Under the pieces are notes generated by a model, which saw only the letters and a program-made list of their open reading frames with translations, was not told the DNA's origin and ran no database searches. A program made the position numbers and the translations under genes. Positions 1,350 through 7,352 of a stretch of DNA of 55,061 bases are shown piece by piece. Positions within the stretch are counted from its first letter, which is position 1. Each line of letters begins with the position of its first letter. This DNA is from Spirobacillus cienkowskii. Its GTDB lineage: Bacteria; Bdellovibrionota_B; Oligoflexia; Silvanigrellales; Silvanigrellaceae. The DNA is taken from NCBI GenBank assembly GCA_003339605.1, contig QOVW01000064.1, positions 1 to 55,061 on the forward strand, written 5' to 3'.

Positions 1350-2702
1350 GTGAAAGAAGATCAAAGAGTACAAAAAACGAGCCATTTTTGTTATTGGAAC
1401 TCTTTAACTGAAGAAAAAAAAGCAGAACTTATTAAGAATTCACAAACAGAAATTGGAGTTAATTCAGAAATTGGGTATTTAAGAAAAGTTTTTTTACACT
1501 CTCCAGGACATGAAGTTGAACTCATGACTCCAAAAAATGCTCCAGAGCTTTTGTATAATGATATTATTTATTATAAAAATGTTGTTGCAGGGCACGCGCA
1601 GTTAAAATCTGTTTTAAGTTTGGTAAGCAATGTGTTAGAGGTAACAGATTGTCTAGAAGAAATATTAGACATTCCTATAGCAAGAGAGCAGTTACTCGAC
1701 AAGATTTTAAGATATCAAAATTGTATAGAGTATAAATTAGAACTCGAATCATTACCTTCTGCAGATTTGGCACAAGCTTTATTAACGGGTGTGCCATTAA
1801 AACGGAACACACTGGAAACTTGGTTGTCTTCAAAGAATTTTTCTCTTGTTCCGTTACCAAATATGTATTTTATGCGCGATACAAGCATGGTAGTGGGAAA
1901 TCGAGTGATAACATCAAAAATGGCAAGTTCAGTGCGGTATGCCGAATCACTTATAATGCGCACTATTTATGATTACCATCCAAATTTGCAAGGATATGGT
2001 TTGTTACTTGATGCGTTAAATGAGCAAAATGATCCTGAATTTACAATAGAAGGCGGAGATATTCTTGTTATCAATAAAGATCTTTTATTGGTAGGAATCA
2101 GTGAGAGAACAACTCCAAAAGCAATTGATACTCTTGTTAATCAATTAATCAAAGCACGAGCTGAAGAAGCTAAAGAAGAACCTTTTAATTTACTCTGTGT
2201 TATTTTACCAAAAAATCGAAGCACAATTCATCTTGATATGATTTTTACTGTTGTAAATAATGAACAAGCAATTGTTTACCCTCCTTATGTATTAGGTAGA
2301 GAGCGAGCTCGTGTTGTTCGTATTCGTGTTAAACCAGATGGAGATAAAAAATTTAAAGAGGTTGAAGATCTTATTTTAGGCTTGAGAAGTGTCGGGGTGC
2401 GAATGGATCCTATTCCTTGTGGTGGAGATGATCCGTTGTATCAACAGCGTGAACAATGGAATAGTGGAGCCAATTTATTTGCGTTTGCTCCTGGAAAAGT
2501 CATTAGCTACATTCATGAGCACACGCTTCGGGCTTGCGAGTCAGCTGGGTTTAAAATTGTGTCTGCAAAAGATGTTATCAAGCACCCAACACTGCTGCAA
2601 AGTCACTCTCCATTGGTTGTTACTGTTGAGGGAAGTGAATTATCTCGTGGAGGTGGAGGGCCGCGGTGCATGACCTGCCCTGTTTTGCGAGATCCAGTAT
2701 AA
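1350..2702 (+). CDS. arcA: arginine deiminase
   Basis: Hydrolyses L-arginine to L-citrulline and ammonia. The full family fold is present (450 residues, slightly longer than the usual 410-420). Catalytic residues are visible: D177 in FMRDTS, E234 in EGGD, H294 and D296 in IHLDM, and the nucleophile C440 in GPRCMTCP. The start is GTG, with AAGGAG seven bases upstream. No arcB, arcC or arcD genes are nearby, so a complete ATP-yielding arginine deiminase pathway is not supported locally. The enzyme may instead supply citrulline or ammonia, or serve acid tolerance. The divergent neighbour is a saccharopine-dehydrogenase-family gene. Confidence 0.93.
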   Translation: MKEDQRVQKTSHFCYWNSLTEEKKAELIKNSQTEIGVNSEIGYLRKVFLHSPGHEVELMTPKNAPELLYNDIIYYKNVVAGHAQLKSVLSLVSNVLEVTDCLEEILDIPIAREQLLDKILRYQNCIEYKLELESLPSADLAQALLTGVPLKRNTLETWLSSKNFSLVPLPNMYFMRDTSMVVGNRVITSKMASSVRYAESLIMRTIYDYHPNLQGYGLLLDALNEQNDPEFTIEGGDILVINKDLLLVGISERTTPKAIDTLVNQLIKARAEEAKEEPFNLLCVILPKNRSTIHLDMIFTVVNNEQAIVYPPYVLGRERARVVRIRVKPDGDKKFKEVEDLILGLRSVGVRMDPIPCGGDDPLYQQREQWNSGANLFAFAPGKVISYIHEHTLRACESAGFKIVSAKDVIKHPTLLQSHSPLVVTVEGSELSRGGGGPRCMTCPVLRDPV

Positions 2703-2796
2703 ATTTTGCAACAATATGCCCCTTTGCATTTGCTCTTGCCTCAAGTCATAATTAAAGGTGACGATACATTAAGTAACGAAGAGGGGAATAATAAGT

Positions 2797-4836
2797 ATGC
2801 GAGGAGCGTTTCGATATACAAGTACTTTGTTCATCGCTTCATATATTTTATTACCATCTTCATTTTTATTTAATTCTTGCTCAAGTAACAATGATGTTGC
2901 TTCTAGTAAGTTAGAATTAAATCTCCCAGAGCAAAAAAGTTTACTTTCAAAAGTAAAACGTAGCGAAATTAACTATATTTCAAACTTAAAAGATTATTCT
3001 CCTCCAACAGAAAAACAACTTATAGATGAAGCTAATTTTCAAAATATTAAGCTTTATAATGAAAGTGCACGTGTTTTAACAGATTGGATTTCAAGATCGT
3101 TACCATCTAAAGATCGAATTCAAATTGCAAAAAATTGCGAAAATTTAATTGCTGGATTTAAAAATCAATTTCCCTTAAATGAAGAAACTCTTACCTGTGC
3201 TGCATGGTGGTTAGAAAAAAGAAATAATGAAACTTTAGCGAATGCGTCTAAATTATCTGCAGCATCTCCGCCAATTATAAAATTTTTATCTAATAAACAA
3301 AGGGCAGAATGGAAAAACTTTGAGGGACTTTCGTTTAATGATGCATTTTATCAATTAGATCCTCCAAGCATTAGTAAAGCTAAAAAAATTTCTGCAGAAG
3401 CGCTAGAAGTTGCATCTGATTGCGATTATAGTAATGCAAATGCAGCATTAATTATCAGATTAGAACCATTTTTACCTGATAAAGAGATTTATTCATTCAT
3501 TGATAAAATATATAATAAAATGAAAAAATGTTTGTCTGCAAATGTTGAACCAAGTGAAAAACTTCATTTAAGGGTTGGGTTATTACGTTTAATTTCAGGG
3601 CAACCTGAGATTGCAAAAGAATCACTAGAAGATGCTTTACTAGATAAAGATCCAGGAGAAAGTTCCAGAAGTCTTTTTTGGTTAGGCACAATTCATCATA
3701 AATCTAAAAATAATTTAAAAGAAAATCCATATTGGCAAAGATTATTAAAAGAAAATCCAATTTCTCTAGCAGCCATAGTTGCTTCCCAGCAATTAGGAAT
3801 TGATCCATTAGATAACTTGGTTCCAGATAAAGATATTGAATTGCAGTCCAGAGATTCTAATGTTTGGAACGAAAATAATTTAGAAGCATTTGTTTTTGAT
3901 TTACTACGGGCAAAAAAACAAATATCTGCTGCAAAAGAATGGGCAAATTTTGTAGGGAGAACATCTACAATCACAAATCCAAAATTAATTCTTTACTGGA
4001 TTTTAGCGCAAAATAGTATGAAAAATTATAGATACTCAATTTTTATGTTGGGTAGATATAGTAAATATTATAAAAATTTTCCTGTTAGTAAAACACTTTT
4101 ATCGTTTCATTTTCCTAAGCCTTATTTAAGAGAAATTGCAAATCACTCAAAAGAGATTGATCCAATTTTTGTATTATCACTTGTTCGTCAAGAGAGTGCT
4201 TTTGATACTCATGCCCAATCAACTGCCAACGCTAGAGGTTTGATGCAGGTTTTACCAACAACTGCAAAAACAATAAAAAGAAAAACATCTCCACGCCATT
4301 TGTTTGATGCTGATAAAAATTTAGAGATTGGTACTAAATATCTTAATATCTTGTTAAGAAAGTACAATGGAAAAACTGAGTATGCACTTGCAGCCTATAA
4401 CGCGGGAGCTTCAAATGTAGATAAATGGCGAGAAAGAGTGAGTAGCGATAATATTATGCTTTTTTGTGATTATATGCCTTTTAAAGAAACGCGAAGCTAT
4501 GTGTCCTTAATTTTAAGAAACTACTATTGGTATACAAGAATTATTTCTGAAAAAGACGATGTATTATCAAAAAAAGTGATTGCTCAAAGCTTAAATGCAA
4601 AATGGAAATCAGAGAGAGTTAAAGCTCTCGTTAATCATGCATCAAATGCAGATATAAAATTACGACAAAAAGAATTATTAGATAAAATTTTTATTTTTGG
4701 GAAATCAGTATCAAATATTAGTACAAATCAATATGATAATAAAAACTCGAGCAATCTAAAAAATACTCCAAACAAAAATTTTAACTATAAAGATAAGAAA
4801 ATTAAAGCAATTTCTTTAGAAAAAGAGATTAAGTAA
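2797..4836 (+). CDS. soluble-type lytic murein transglycosylase (Slt family), probable lipoprotein
   Basis: Cleaves peptidoglycan glycan strands in the periplasm to 1,6-anhydro-muropeptides. The N-terminus has a hydrophobic signal ending in a lipobox-like FNSC with C28, so membrane anchoring is likely. A long alpha-helical region (about 40-440) resembles the superhelical U-domain of Slt70. The catalytic SLT domain follows, with E466 in LVRQESAFD, then ARGLMQVLP and ALAAYNAGASNVDKW. The C-terminal about 90 residues are Lys/Asn-rich and low complexity. The start has GAGGGG upstream. It converges on the next gene with only 10 bases between stops. Confidence 0.9.
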   Translation: MRGAFRYTSTLFIASYILLPSSFLFNSCSSNNDVASSKLELNLPEQKSLLSKVKRSEINYISNLKDYSPPTEKQLIDEANFQNIKLYNESARVLTDWISRSLPSKDRIQIAKNCENLIAGFKNQFPLNEETLTCAAWWLEKRNNETLANASKLSAASPPIIKFLSNKQRAEWKNFEGLSFNDAFYQLDPPSISKAKKISAEALEVASDCDYSNANAALIIRLEPFLPDKEIYSFIDKIYNKMKKCLSANVEPSEKLHLRVGLLRLISGQPEIAKESLEDALLDKDPGESSRSLFWLGTIHHKSKNNLKENPYWQRLLKENPISLAAIVASQQLGIDPLDNLVPDKDIELQSRDSNVWNENNLEAFVFDLLRAKKQISAAKEWANFVGRTSTITNPKLILYWILAQNSMKNYRYSIFMLGRYSKYYKNFPVSKTLLSFHFPKPYLREIANHSKEIDPIFVLSLVRQESAFDTHAQSTANARGLMQVLPTTAKTIKRKTSPRHLFDADKNLEIGTKYLNILLRKYNGKTEYALAAYNAGASNVDKWRERVSSDNIMLFCDYMPFKETRSYVSLILRNYYWYTRIISEKDDVLSKKVIAQSLNAKWKSERVKALVNHASNADIKLRQKELLDKIFIFGKSVSNISTNQYDNKNSSNLKNTPNKNFNYKDKKIKAISLEKEIK

Positions 4837-4846
4837 TAATAATTTA

Positions 4847-5461
4847 TTACTGAAAGTTATTGATGATTTCTCCTTTGATTGATGAGTTTTTTGTTATATT
4901 TATTTTTGAATTTTTGTTTTCAATAATTATATTTCCAGCTACAACTGTATTTTCTAATGTTAGGGTCTGTTGATTAGAGTTATTTAAATTTTCTTTTAAT
5001 ATTATATTTTTATTTATTATAGAGTTTTTTATTGTATTATTAAGACCAAAAATTTCAGTATTATCATAAAATATGCTATTATCTGCAAATAAATTTCCAA
5101 AAACTTGTGTGTATTTATTAATAACTACTTCGTGAATAAAGGCGTTTTCTGTAACATATAAATTTGAAAATCTTACAAATTTTGCGATAAGTTGACCATA
5201 AAAATTACCATTAAAGACAGTAGAATTTAAAAGATTGCTTCTTCCTAAAATTACAAGATTATCTTTGAAATTAGAATTATTAGATACAATATTTCCATTA
5301 ATAATTATATTAGATGTTGAATGACATTTATTAAAATTAGCGTTTCCCTCTATCATCAGTTCATTGATTGTATTTTCATTGCAAACATATGTATCACTTG
5401 TAGTGGCAAAGCATAAATTTGAAATCAAAAACAAAAAAACACTCAGTCTAAAATACTTCAT
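4847..5461 (-). CDS. secreted protein with beta-helix-like (bactofilin-like) repeats
   Basis: A 204-residue protein with a clear Sec signal peptide (1-19, cut after CFA). The rest is Asn/Ile-rich and built of short hydrophobic strands spaced by polar turns, for example GNIVSNNSNFKDNLVILG and VVAGNIIIENKNSKI. That pattern resembles a right-handed beta-helix, as in bactofilins, but here the protein is exported. The start is ATG 5461, preceded by AAAGGAG eight bases upstream; an ATG seven codons earlier would place the ribosome site inside the gene. Family not recognised. Envelope structural or surface role is inferred only. Converges on the lytic transglycosylase gene. Confidence 0.65.
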   Translation of the reverse strand: MKYFRLSVFLFLISNLCFATTSDTYVCNENTINELMIEGNANFNKCHSTSNIIINGNIVSNNSNFKDNLVILGRSNLLNSTVFNGNFYGQLIAKFVRFSNLYVTENAFIHEVVINKYTQVFGNLFADNSIFYDNTEIFGLNNTIKNSIINKNIILKENLNNSNQQTLTLENTVVAGNIIIENKNSKINITKNSSIKGEIINNFQ

Positions 5462-5610
5462 ACTTATTACTCCTTTCGTCAAATTTGTAATATTAAAATT
5501 AAATTCTTTATAATTAAAATTAGAACAAGAAGATCATTAAACTATTTAATAGCATATAAGTACATTTATATCAAATTTTTATTTTAAATATAATTTTTAA
5601 AATTTATTGT

Positions 5611-5639
5611 AAAAACACATTAAAGGTTTAAGTGTTTTT
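5611..5639 (-). terminator. intrinsic terminator after the BpsA-like gene
   Basis: The inverted repeat AAAAACAC (5611-5618) / GTGTTTTT (5632-5639) starts at the stop codon of the minus-strand gene. The loop can pair further (TTAA/TTAA). It is low in GC, but flanking A/T runs suit a terminator working for the leftward gene. Confidence 0.5.
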
Positions 5640-6593
5640 TTAAATTTTTTTATTGTGATGCTTGTTAAAAGGTATAAAAAAAGCAACTGGATATTCTGGA
5701 TATGAAAGATGACTAGAAGGTTGATTATTGCTCTGACTTTCTTCTAATTTATTGACCTTATCATTAATTTGAGTCATTGATTTAAATTCTAAACAATCTG
5801 TAAAATAATATAAACATTTAAATCCTTTTTTTCTTTCATGATAATTATGAGTAAAATAAGACATTAGATTTAGCAACCAGGATTGTCCTCGATTAAGAGG
5901 ATAGCAATTAAAATATTCAAATTTTTGAGTATTTTTAAAGCCAAATACATCTAAATAATTTAAAATTCTAATAGTGAAAATTTCTCCCATTGCATTTGCA
6001 TTCATCATCATATAAATAGAAGAATTTTTATGTTTTACAGCTTTTAAGGCACAATCTAAAAAAATTTTTAAATCATAATAGTTTTGAGGTGGATCAAAAC
6101 AAATTACAGAAAATAATTTACTTAAATAATTTGGAAGGCCTTGATATAAATCAATGTGTAAAAATGTAATCGGAAATTTTGCATCATGAGTTAATATTTT
6201 TAATTTATTTAATAAAGATTTATCACAATCTAGTACTGTAATGTACTTAAACTTTCGTGAAGCGAGTTCAACACATAGTAAATCATCATCACCCATTAGC
6301 AATATTTCTTTATCTCTATAACCATTTTTTTCTAAAAGATCTGCTCTTTTTTTACGAGTTTCCACAGTGCATGGAAGTTGATTATAATGTTCTACAAATT
6401 TTAAGGATGGTTTTTTTATTATTAATTCATTATTTTCAGATTTATGATATTTAATGTTTTCATCAATTATTTTTCTTAAAAAAAGCATTTTTTCTTTACT
6501 ATTTAATTTTAAAATATGTTTAACAGTTTTGCTTCTAAAAAAAATACTTAAAGTTGAGCATAAAATTTTATGAAAAATTTCTTTTATTTTCAT
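5640..6593 (-). CDS. branched-chain polyamine synthase A (BpsA) C-terminal-domain-like aminopropyltransferase
   Basis: A 317-residue Rossmann-fold transferase. The motifs GDDDLL (101-106), VLDCD (120-124) and FDPP (166-169) match the BpsA/DUF43 family, whose members transfer aminopropyl groups from decarboxylated S-adenosylmethionine to spermidine to make branched polyamines. Length is a little under that of archaeal BpsA (about 350). The ATG overlaps the stop of the upstream LysE-like gene by four bases (ATGA), implying translational coupling. The N-terminal 60 residues are basic and may be a reduced winged-helix region. Product identity (branched or linear polyamine) is not readable from sequence. 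Followed by a terminator-like hairpin. Confidence 0.72.
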   Translation of the reverse strand: MKIKEIFHKILCSTLSIFFRSKTVKHILKLNSKEKMLFLRKIIDENIKYHKSENNELIIKKPSLKFVEHYNQLPCTVETRKKRADLLEKNGYRDKEILLMGDDDLLCVELASRKFKYITVLDCDKSLLNKLKILTHDAKFPITFLHIDLYQGLPNYLSKLFSVICFDPPQNYYDLKIFLDCALKAVKHKNSSIYMMMNANAMGEIFTIRILNYLDVFGFKNTQKFEYFNCYPLNRGQSWLLNLMSYFTHNYHERKKGFKCLYYFTDCLEFKSMTQINDKVNKLEESQSNNQPSSHLSYPEYPVAFFIPFNKHHNKKI

Positions 6594-7279
6594 GCAGTTA
6601 ATCCTAGATAATAGGTAATTATAAACTTTATAGAAAATATAATTGCAATCATAATTAATGTGTAACCCATATATTTTTCAATTTTACTAATGGAATTTTG
6701 TGTCATTTTTTTGCCTATATGGTTTGCAAAGTATCGGTATAATTTAAACACTATCCAATCACCAAATCCAACTCCTATCGCAATTGCGATGATTTCTATA
6801 AATAATAAGTTTTCTTTTAAATAGTTTTGTCCCATCCACCAAAGATACCAGAAGGGAATTAAACCTGGTATCGTCAATGTTCCAACTACTCCTTCAAAAA
6901 ATGTGCTTACATATTTACTTTTATGGTTATTTGATGTTTTGACTTGATGTATAAGTTTATCATTTTTATTGTTAAGGATGTATTTTGTGCCTATATATAT
7001 TAATAATAAAATAAAAATTACGTTTGCTAAGGTAATAAATAAATCTTTGTAATCCGAAAGTAAACTAAGCTGCAGTGTTTCTTTAACAATAAGGTAAATT
7101 ATTATGCAACAAATTGTATCTGCGATAATAATGCCTAATTGAAAAAAAAATAATTTAATTTTTTCATTTTTTAGATAAAAAACAATCATTGAAACATTAA
7201 GTAGACCTGGAGGCGCTGATGAGATAATACCACCAACCATTGCAGAAAAAAATAAATATAAAATTATTTCATATTCCAT
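6590..7279 (-). CDS. LysE-family exporter
   Basis: A multi-pass inner-membrane protein of 229 residues with about six hydrophobic segments. Its N-terminal signature, SSAPPGLLNVSMI, corresponds to the PGP region of LysE/RhtB exporters, which expel amino acids or related amines. The start is set at ATG 7279: an upstream in-frame start at 7336 would lie on the far side of a strong terminator hairpin. The SD is weak (TAGG) and touches the base of that hairpin. The downstream gene is a polyamine-type aminopropyltransferase overlapping by four bases, so the cargo may be a polyamine or its precursor (inference). Confidence 0.75.
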   Translation of the reverse strand: MEYEIILYLFFSAMVGGIISSAPPGLLNVSMIVFYLKNEKIKLFFFQLGIIIADTICCIIIYLIVKETLQLSLLSDYKDLFITLANVIFILLLIYIGTKYILNNKNDKLIHQVKTSNNHKSKYVSTFFEGVVGTLTIPGLIPFWYLWWMGQNYLKENLLFIEIIAIAIGVGFGDWIVFKLYRYFANHIGKKMTQNSISKIEKYMGYTLIMIAIIFSIKFIITYYLGLTA

Positions 7280-7286
7280 TAAAAAC

Positions 7287-7326
7287 CTATAGAGAGTGTT
7301 ATTTAATATAATAACACTCTCTATAG
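7287..7326 (-). terminator. intrinsic terminator after the malic enzyme gene
   Basis: A perfect 16-bp inverted repeat (7287-7302 with 7311-7326, 8-base loop) lies 26 bases past the maeA stop. On the minus strand it is followed by GG and five T. Its 3' arm abuts the ribosome-binding region of the LysE-like gene, so it separates, or conditionally joins, the two units. Confidence 0.75.
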
Positions 7327-7352
7327 ACAAACCCAAATTTAACTTAAAATTT

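Follow-up and report, generated by a model that had tools for sequence, protein, structure and literature searches.

A putative BpsA-like aminopropyltransferase and a divergent LysE-superfamily transporter are encoded side by side in two families of Oligoflexia

We analysed a stretch of 55,061 nucleotides from the water-flea parasite Spirobacillus cienkowskii (contig QOVW01000064.1, positions 1 to 55,061; henceforth referred to as 'the window'), in which two adjoining genes on the reverse strand encode a divergent LysE-superfamily membrane transporter of 229 amino acids (6590..7279 (-), from an ATG start) and a BpsA-like putative aminopropyltransferase of 317 amino acids (5640..6593 (-); henceforth referred to as 'the enzyme'). 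Both reading frames lie where the first-pass annotation had placed them and, as it had claimed, they share an ATGA at 6590..6593 (-), which the sequence gives as the stop codon of the transporter gene and the start codon of the enzyme gene. A TTG at 7336 is a less likely start for the transporter than the ATG, judged from the sequence, and a gene starting there would cross a terminator-like hairpin at 7285..7328 (-). This hairpin splits the pair from its upstream neighbour, the malic enzyme gene; it comprises 18-19 base pairs, has a folding energy of -24.3 kcal/mol (z -6.2, none of 200 shuffles being as good), is included in the terminator scan list and has its 3' end 5 nt from the transporter ATG. 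We took the hairpin to mark where the malic enzyme gene probably ends; if it does terminate that gene, a transporter promoter would have no room. A promoter scan of the unit returned 24 promoter-like sites compared to 23.3 in shuffles, i.e. no excess over chance. The position of the hairpin 5 nt from the ATG, together with promoter-like sites at chance level, counts against the two genes being a simple unit in which a compound is made and exported. A weak hairpin directly 3' of the enzyme stop codon (5611..5639 (-); -6.9 kcal/mol, z -2.6, 3 of 200 shuffles being as good) is absent from the terminator scan list. A conserved leader structure was considered and rejected, as the stretch preceding the transporter gene has 59% mean column identity in sister species; a similar inverted repeat before the transporter gene was noted, by eye only, in the sister locus L020. 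Near the pair, at 143-2702, the window also carries a gene for a member of the saccharopine dehydrogenase family and, transcribed divergently from it, one for a member of the arginine deiminase family (PF02274, E 5.9e-63, under the NCBIfam arcA cut-off).

The enzyme passes the Pfam model PF01861 (BpsA_C) with an E-value of 3.5e-19 (score 69.5 bits, cut-off 27) and matches Tk-BpsA (PDB 5xnc) with E-values of 1.5e-8 by sequence and 2.4e-17 by profile. In an AlphaFold2 model of the enzyme, which was built from 16 relatives and has a mean pLDDT of 81.2 (residues 55-71 and 286-317 being below 50), the fold is that of BpsA: the first nine places of a Foldseek search were occupied by 2qm3 and BpsA chains, and VIA-align superposed the model on BpsA chains with Z scores of 20.8-23.2 (rmsd 3.3-3.8 over 211-219 residues) and on 2qm3, a Pyrococcus 'predicted methyltransferase' that also matches the family profile, with a Z score of 22.1. 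To compare individual residues we used the profile alignment with Tk-BpsA, in which the chain numbering equals the native numbering of a 2026 review (PMC12979288) plus 20. According to that review, Asp159 and Asp160 of Tk-BpsA hold the aminopropyl group of decarboxylated S-adenosylmethionine (dcSAM), Asp225, Tyr290, Glu259 and Tyr316 are acceptor-side residues, and the acidic C-terminal cluster from Glu339 to Glu345 carries the aminopropyl group. The GDDD motif of the enzyme (residues 101-104, 6282..6293 (-)), which aligns with Gly157-Asp160 of Tk-BpsA, is invariant in all 16 relatives. Within the DPP motif (residues 167-169, 6087..6095 (-)), Asp167, which aligns with Asp225, and Pro168 occur in 16 of 16 relatives and Pro169 in 15; Tyr231, the equivalent of Tyr290, is likewise invariant (16/16). 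Glu259, on the other hand, is not kept, the aligned position 201 being A, S, V, I or C in every one of the 16. Tyr316 lies beyond the profile alignment, and the range offset of the structure alignment places it near Tyr263, in a column that contains Tyr in six and Phe in ten of the relatives. The acidic C-terminal cluster is missing from the tail of the enzyme, which past residue 270 contains four acidic and six basic residues and which in 8 of the 16 relatives is no more than five residues long. Finally, where BpsA has an N-terminal domain of about 125 residues, 71 residues precede Gln72 of the enzyme, about 55 fewer than the 126 that come before the Gln aligned with it in Tk-BpsA; a partial structural match is obtained from residue 30 or 31.

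Since conservation extends to the dcSAM side but to only part of the acceptor and carrier side, we filed the enzyme as BpsA-like and not as BpsA. With BpsA itself (N4-bis(aminopropyl)spermidine synthase, EC 2.5.1.128, of Thermococcus and Thermus, whose products are N4-aminopropyl- and N4-bis(aminopropyl)spermidine) it has in common PF01861, the fold, GDDD, the Asp of the DPP motif and the Tyr290 equivalent, but its identity to BpsA is 20-22%, it lacks Glu259 and the acidic carrier cluster, and it is shorter at the N-terminus; also unlike BpsA of Thermococcus and Thermus, it is paired with an exporter-like protein, and its hosts, in Silvanigrellaceae and an Oligoflexus-like family, are presumably mesophiles. 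The earlier description of a BpsA-type synthase thus stands for the family, whereas a plain BpsA is not supported: Glu259 and the acidic tail are missing, and the N-terminus is shorter. Because the fold is also the common class I methyltransferase fold, and METTL5-type chains reach a Z score of 18.0 (the best value for the enzyme model among methyltransferases outside the BpsA/2qm3 group in VIA-align), we weighed whether the enzyme could be a distant ordinary SAM-dependent methyltransferase and not an aminopropyltransferase. We regard this as quite improbable: BpsA chains score higher, and the enzyme shares GDDD as its first motif with BpsA, in which, according to PMC12979288, Asp159 and Asp160 hold the aminopropyl group of dcSAM. 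The SpeE-type spermidine/spermine synthases, which are encoded in the same genome, presumably use the same dcSAM donor, but the enzyme has no match to the Spermine_synth models at E up to 1. Our best reading of the enzyme is a putative dcSAM-dependent aminopropyltransferase.

The genome is predicted to encode its own supply of dcSAM. It contains an E. coli-type SpeD, which passes PF02675 and scores 238.4 bits with TIGR03331, under the NCBIfam cut-off of 255.8, and this shortfall counts against a make-and-export role for the pair. It also contains a SpeE over the cut-off (L089), two further SpeE-like genes (L090 2242-3126 and L091 2216-3187) and two Orn_Arg_deC_N proteins, one of them in a 649-amino-acid frame, which we take to be the size of biosynthetic arginine decarboxylase. 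The SpeE-like protein of L091 has GIGDLG where SpeE of L089 has GGGDGG, and its activity seems doubtful. In a set of 56 genomes, speD was present in all 16 enzyme-bearing genomes compared to 25 of the 40 others (one-sided Fisher p 0.0025, a test that ignores relatedness). Independent support for the use of dcSAM by the wider family is provided by a fusion protein of 555 amino acids (L094, MT839461.1, reverse complement, 1606-3273) that joins BpsA_C (E 1.9e-33) to AdoMetDC (E 7.2e-42). This was the sole match in the phage collection, on an unverified contig from human stool that is filed as phage and is probably bacterial; on our reading of the sequence the fusion gene adjoins a gene for an AraC-like regulator. 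Our literature search, which left most subscription papers outside, found no paper on a BpsA-AdoMetDC fusion, and it found no polyamine profile of the bacteria considered here.

The transporter is less readily assigned to a family. Taken alone, it passes no Pfam cut-off, PF01810 (LysE/RhtB) being unlisted at E up to 1, and the best PF01810 match among nine transporter orthologs is under the cut-off (E 0.0019). A profile of these nine orthologs (A2), by contrast with the single sequence, finds proteins of the same class at E 4.2e-15 (L060) and 5.1e-13, both of which are clear LysE proteins (PF01810 at 5.4e-24 for L060 and 5.0e-24 for the other). The transporter is thus predicted to be a divergent member of the LysE superfamily that is visible only by profile, and the LysE-type exporter of the first-pass annotation holds at the level of the superfamily but not at that of a single sequence. 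A similar length, the P-x-G block and two GxxxxD motifs are also found in LysE proteins (the motifs in L060-L062); in contrast, a FWxxWW block present in 9 of 9 orthologs sets the transporter apart as a subfamily of its own. Residues P23, G25, N28, D54, W144, W147, W148, D174 and R182 are invariant in all nine. The model of the transporter is helical (mean pLDDT 77.1); compared with solved structures it matched none at E up to 0.001, its best Z score (10.6) being to part of a chloroplast TOC-TIC chain, and a solved-structure search with the sequence returned no relative. We rejected a DsbD-like electron-transfer protein, as the match was weak (E 0.0076) and no cysteine is found among the invariant columns. 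The cargoes of the LysE superfamily are diverse, and this diversity counts against the make-and-export reading.

We then considered how widely the pair is distributed. The search set comprised 58 Oligoflexia genomes (the phylum- and class-level sets are both these 58), and strong matches to the enzyme were detected in 17, two weak matches (G014 and G029) being left out of the count. Orthologs of the transporter (E < 1e-70) were found in ten, i.e. the window and nine others, a count that leaves out weak matches in G020, G030, G032, G046 and G056 as well as a fragment in G055. Of the weak matches, the three that we checked (G046, G056 and G030) score above the PF01810 cut-off as LysE proteins, and those in G020, G030 and G032 are not on the contig that bears the enzyme gene. 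In 10 of 10 genomes the transporter ortholog adjoins the enzyme gene and is co-directional with it (the window, L018-L022, L028, L029, L031 and G057), the transporter gene at one of these loci (L028; G055) being cut by a contig end. G057 is the same species as the window (99.8% identity over 11,903 bases). The pair nevertheless spans two families, Silvanigrellaceae (genus g1) and an Oligoflexus-like family (genus g29, with three pair-bearing genomes), which excludes that it is unique to one strain, an outcome that the first-pass annotation had named as refuting its proposal. Adjacency in other genomes was therefore confirmed, but the ATGA overlap is confined to the window's species: the gap between the two genes is -4 nt there and +9 to +29 nt at the eight loci of other species. 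Neither gene was found in G049 or G050 (genus g29), genomes that are 82% and 72% complete. A scan of an 84,980-species collection gave nine loci, all from genomes already in the set; its reach is limited, as it missed other enzyme-bearing genomes. A phage or plasmid origin of the pair was rejected, as no relative was confirmed in viral_contigs and no match was obtained in plasmids.

Rates of substitution at the two genes were estimated from dS values that are high or near saturation and are accordingly rough. In two pairs of sister species, dN/dS was about 0.06 for the enzyme (dS near saturation) and 0.08 and 0.21 for the transporter (high dS), and between the window and two sisters, again at high dS, it was 0.28-0.32 and 0.40-0.42, respectively. 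We counted the low value of the enzyme in the sister pairs in favour of the make-and-export reading and the weaker constraint between the window and its sisters against it. With respect to gene order, blastp (E 1e-4) found nothing apart from the pair in common between the fetched loci of g1 and those of g29. The controls for synteny do not settle the background rate at which gene order is lost: a search of the three g29 genomes for malic enzyme came back empty, which carries no weight, and the helicase was found there only at 23-42% identity. All loci belong to one class, and could descend from a single ancestral arrangement, and the chance-level promoter scan would also be compatible with two genes that are merely co-inherited neighbours. 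Such simple co-inheritance is nonetheless very improbable in our view, given that the two genes stay adjacent and co-directional while the loci fetched from the two families have no other neighbour in common.

The genes that follow the pair in related species bear on the nature of the acceptor. In five sister species (L018-L022), three same-strand genes of like sizes follow the enzyme gene, and at L018 (2418-7385) Pfam identifies them as a glycosyltransferase, a Wzy_C ligase-like protein and an ABC exporter; at L019-L022 similarity confirmed only the ligase-like gene, so that the three gene names are established on L018 only. Siderophore synthetases, which the gene sizes had led us to suspect, were rejected on these Pfam assignments. 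The ligase-like gene is present in 5 of the 10 pair-bearing genomes and was not found in the two genomes of the window's species or in the three pair-bearing g29 genomes. In the window, a gene at 4847-5482 occupies the place of the three sister genes and shows weak similarity (E 2.4e-6) to a bactofilin-like protein of L018. The enzyme-transporter pair is thus the core, but an envelope role is possible. The three sister genes and the loss of the acceptor-side Glu259 favour a dcSAM aminopropyltransferase acting on a building block of an envelope product, be it a sugar, a lipid or an amino acid, the precursor being moved by the transporter. We consider it unlikely, as the three genes do not adjoin the pair in the window, the ligase-like gene was not found in the window's species or in the three g29 genomes, and a transporter of about 220 amino acids would seem small for a lipid-linked precursor. 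The sister genes do leave room for a non-polyamine acceptor, and the module for an unusual polyamine proposed at first pass is to that extent not supported in the form in which it was put.

Overall, the most economical reading of the conserved pair is that it makes and exports a modified amine. The enzyme would bind dcSAM through its GDDD and DPP motifs and pass the aminopropyl group on to an amine acceptor, for which spermidine or a similar polyamine is the likeliest candidate; the product would be a longer or branched amine, and the adjoining LysE-superfamily protein would carry it out of the cell. This reading draws on homology, the kept dcSAM-side motifs, adjacency in two families and the speD and speE genes, and it is supported by the conservation of adjacency with different neighbours in the two families. 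The replacement of Glu259 and the absence of the acidic carrier cluster count against it. Taking these together, we put the chance that the pair is a small make-and-export unit, with aminopropyl transfer, acceptor and export all deduced, at a little short of even.

Seven of the 17 enzyme-bearing genomes (six of genus g12, and G017) keep the enzyme without an orthologous transporter, from which it follows that export is not obligatory, and the polyamine export claimed by the first-pass annotation could accordingly not be sustained as claimed. These seven genomes would suit a transporter that serves as a relief valve for excess polyamine, amino acid or a by-product while the product of the enzyme has an intracellular role, like the branched-chain polyamines of thermophiles (roles inside cells are described in PMC12979288). 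We think that the transporter is unlikely to have this role: among the 58 genomes it never occurs without the adjoining enzyme (10/10), which argues for the product of the enzyme as its cargo. Extending the make-and-export reading to its hosts, it is conceivable, though on balance doubtful, that Silvanigrellaceae and the Oligoflexus-like family secrete a longer or branched polyamine by means of a BpsA-like enzyme that has no acidic tail (perhaps with direct transfer) and a dedicated LysE-type exporter.

No report of a BpsA-type enzyme paired with a LysE-type exporter was found among the papers listed by our literature searches, most subscription papers being outside their scope, and in a term search the word BpsA was absent from PMC11107197. 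Branched-chain polyamines are described in the 2026 review (PMC12979288) as signatures of organisms in extreme thermal environments. A BpsA-like enzyme tied to an exporter would extend branched-chain polyamine chemistry outside thermophiles, and the pair offers a natural test of whether BpsA-type catalysis needs an acidic carrier tail. A conserved enzyme and exporter would further suggest that the product is used outside the cell and, if this is true, the product may be a secreted polyamine that acts as a signal, a defence or an envelope agent, in a group to which an animal parasite belongs.
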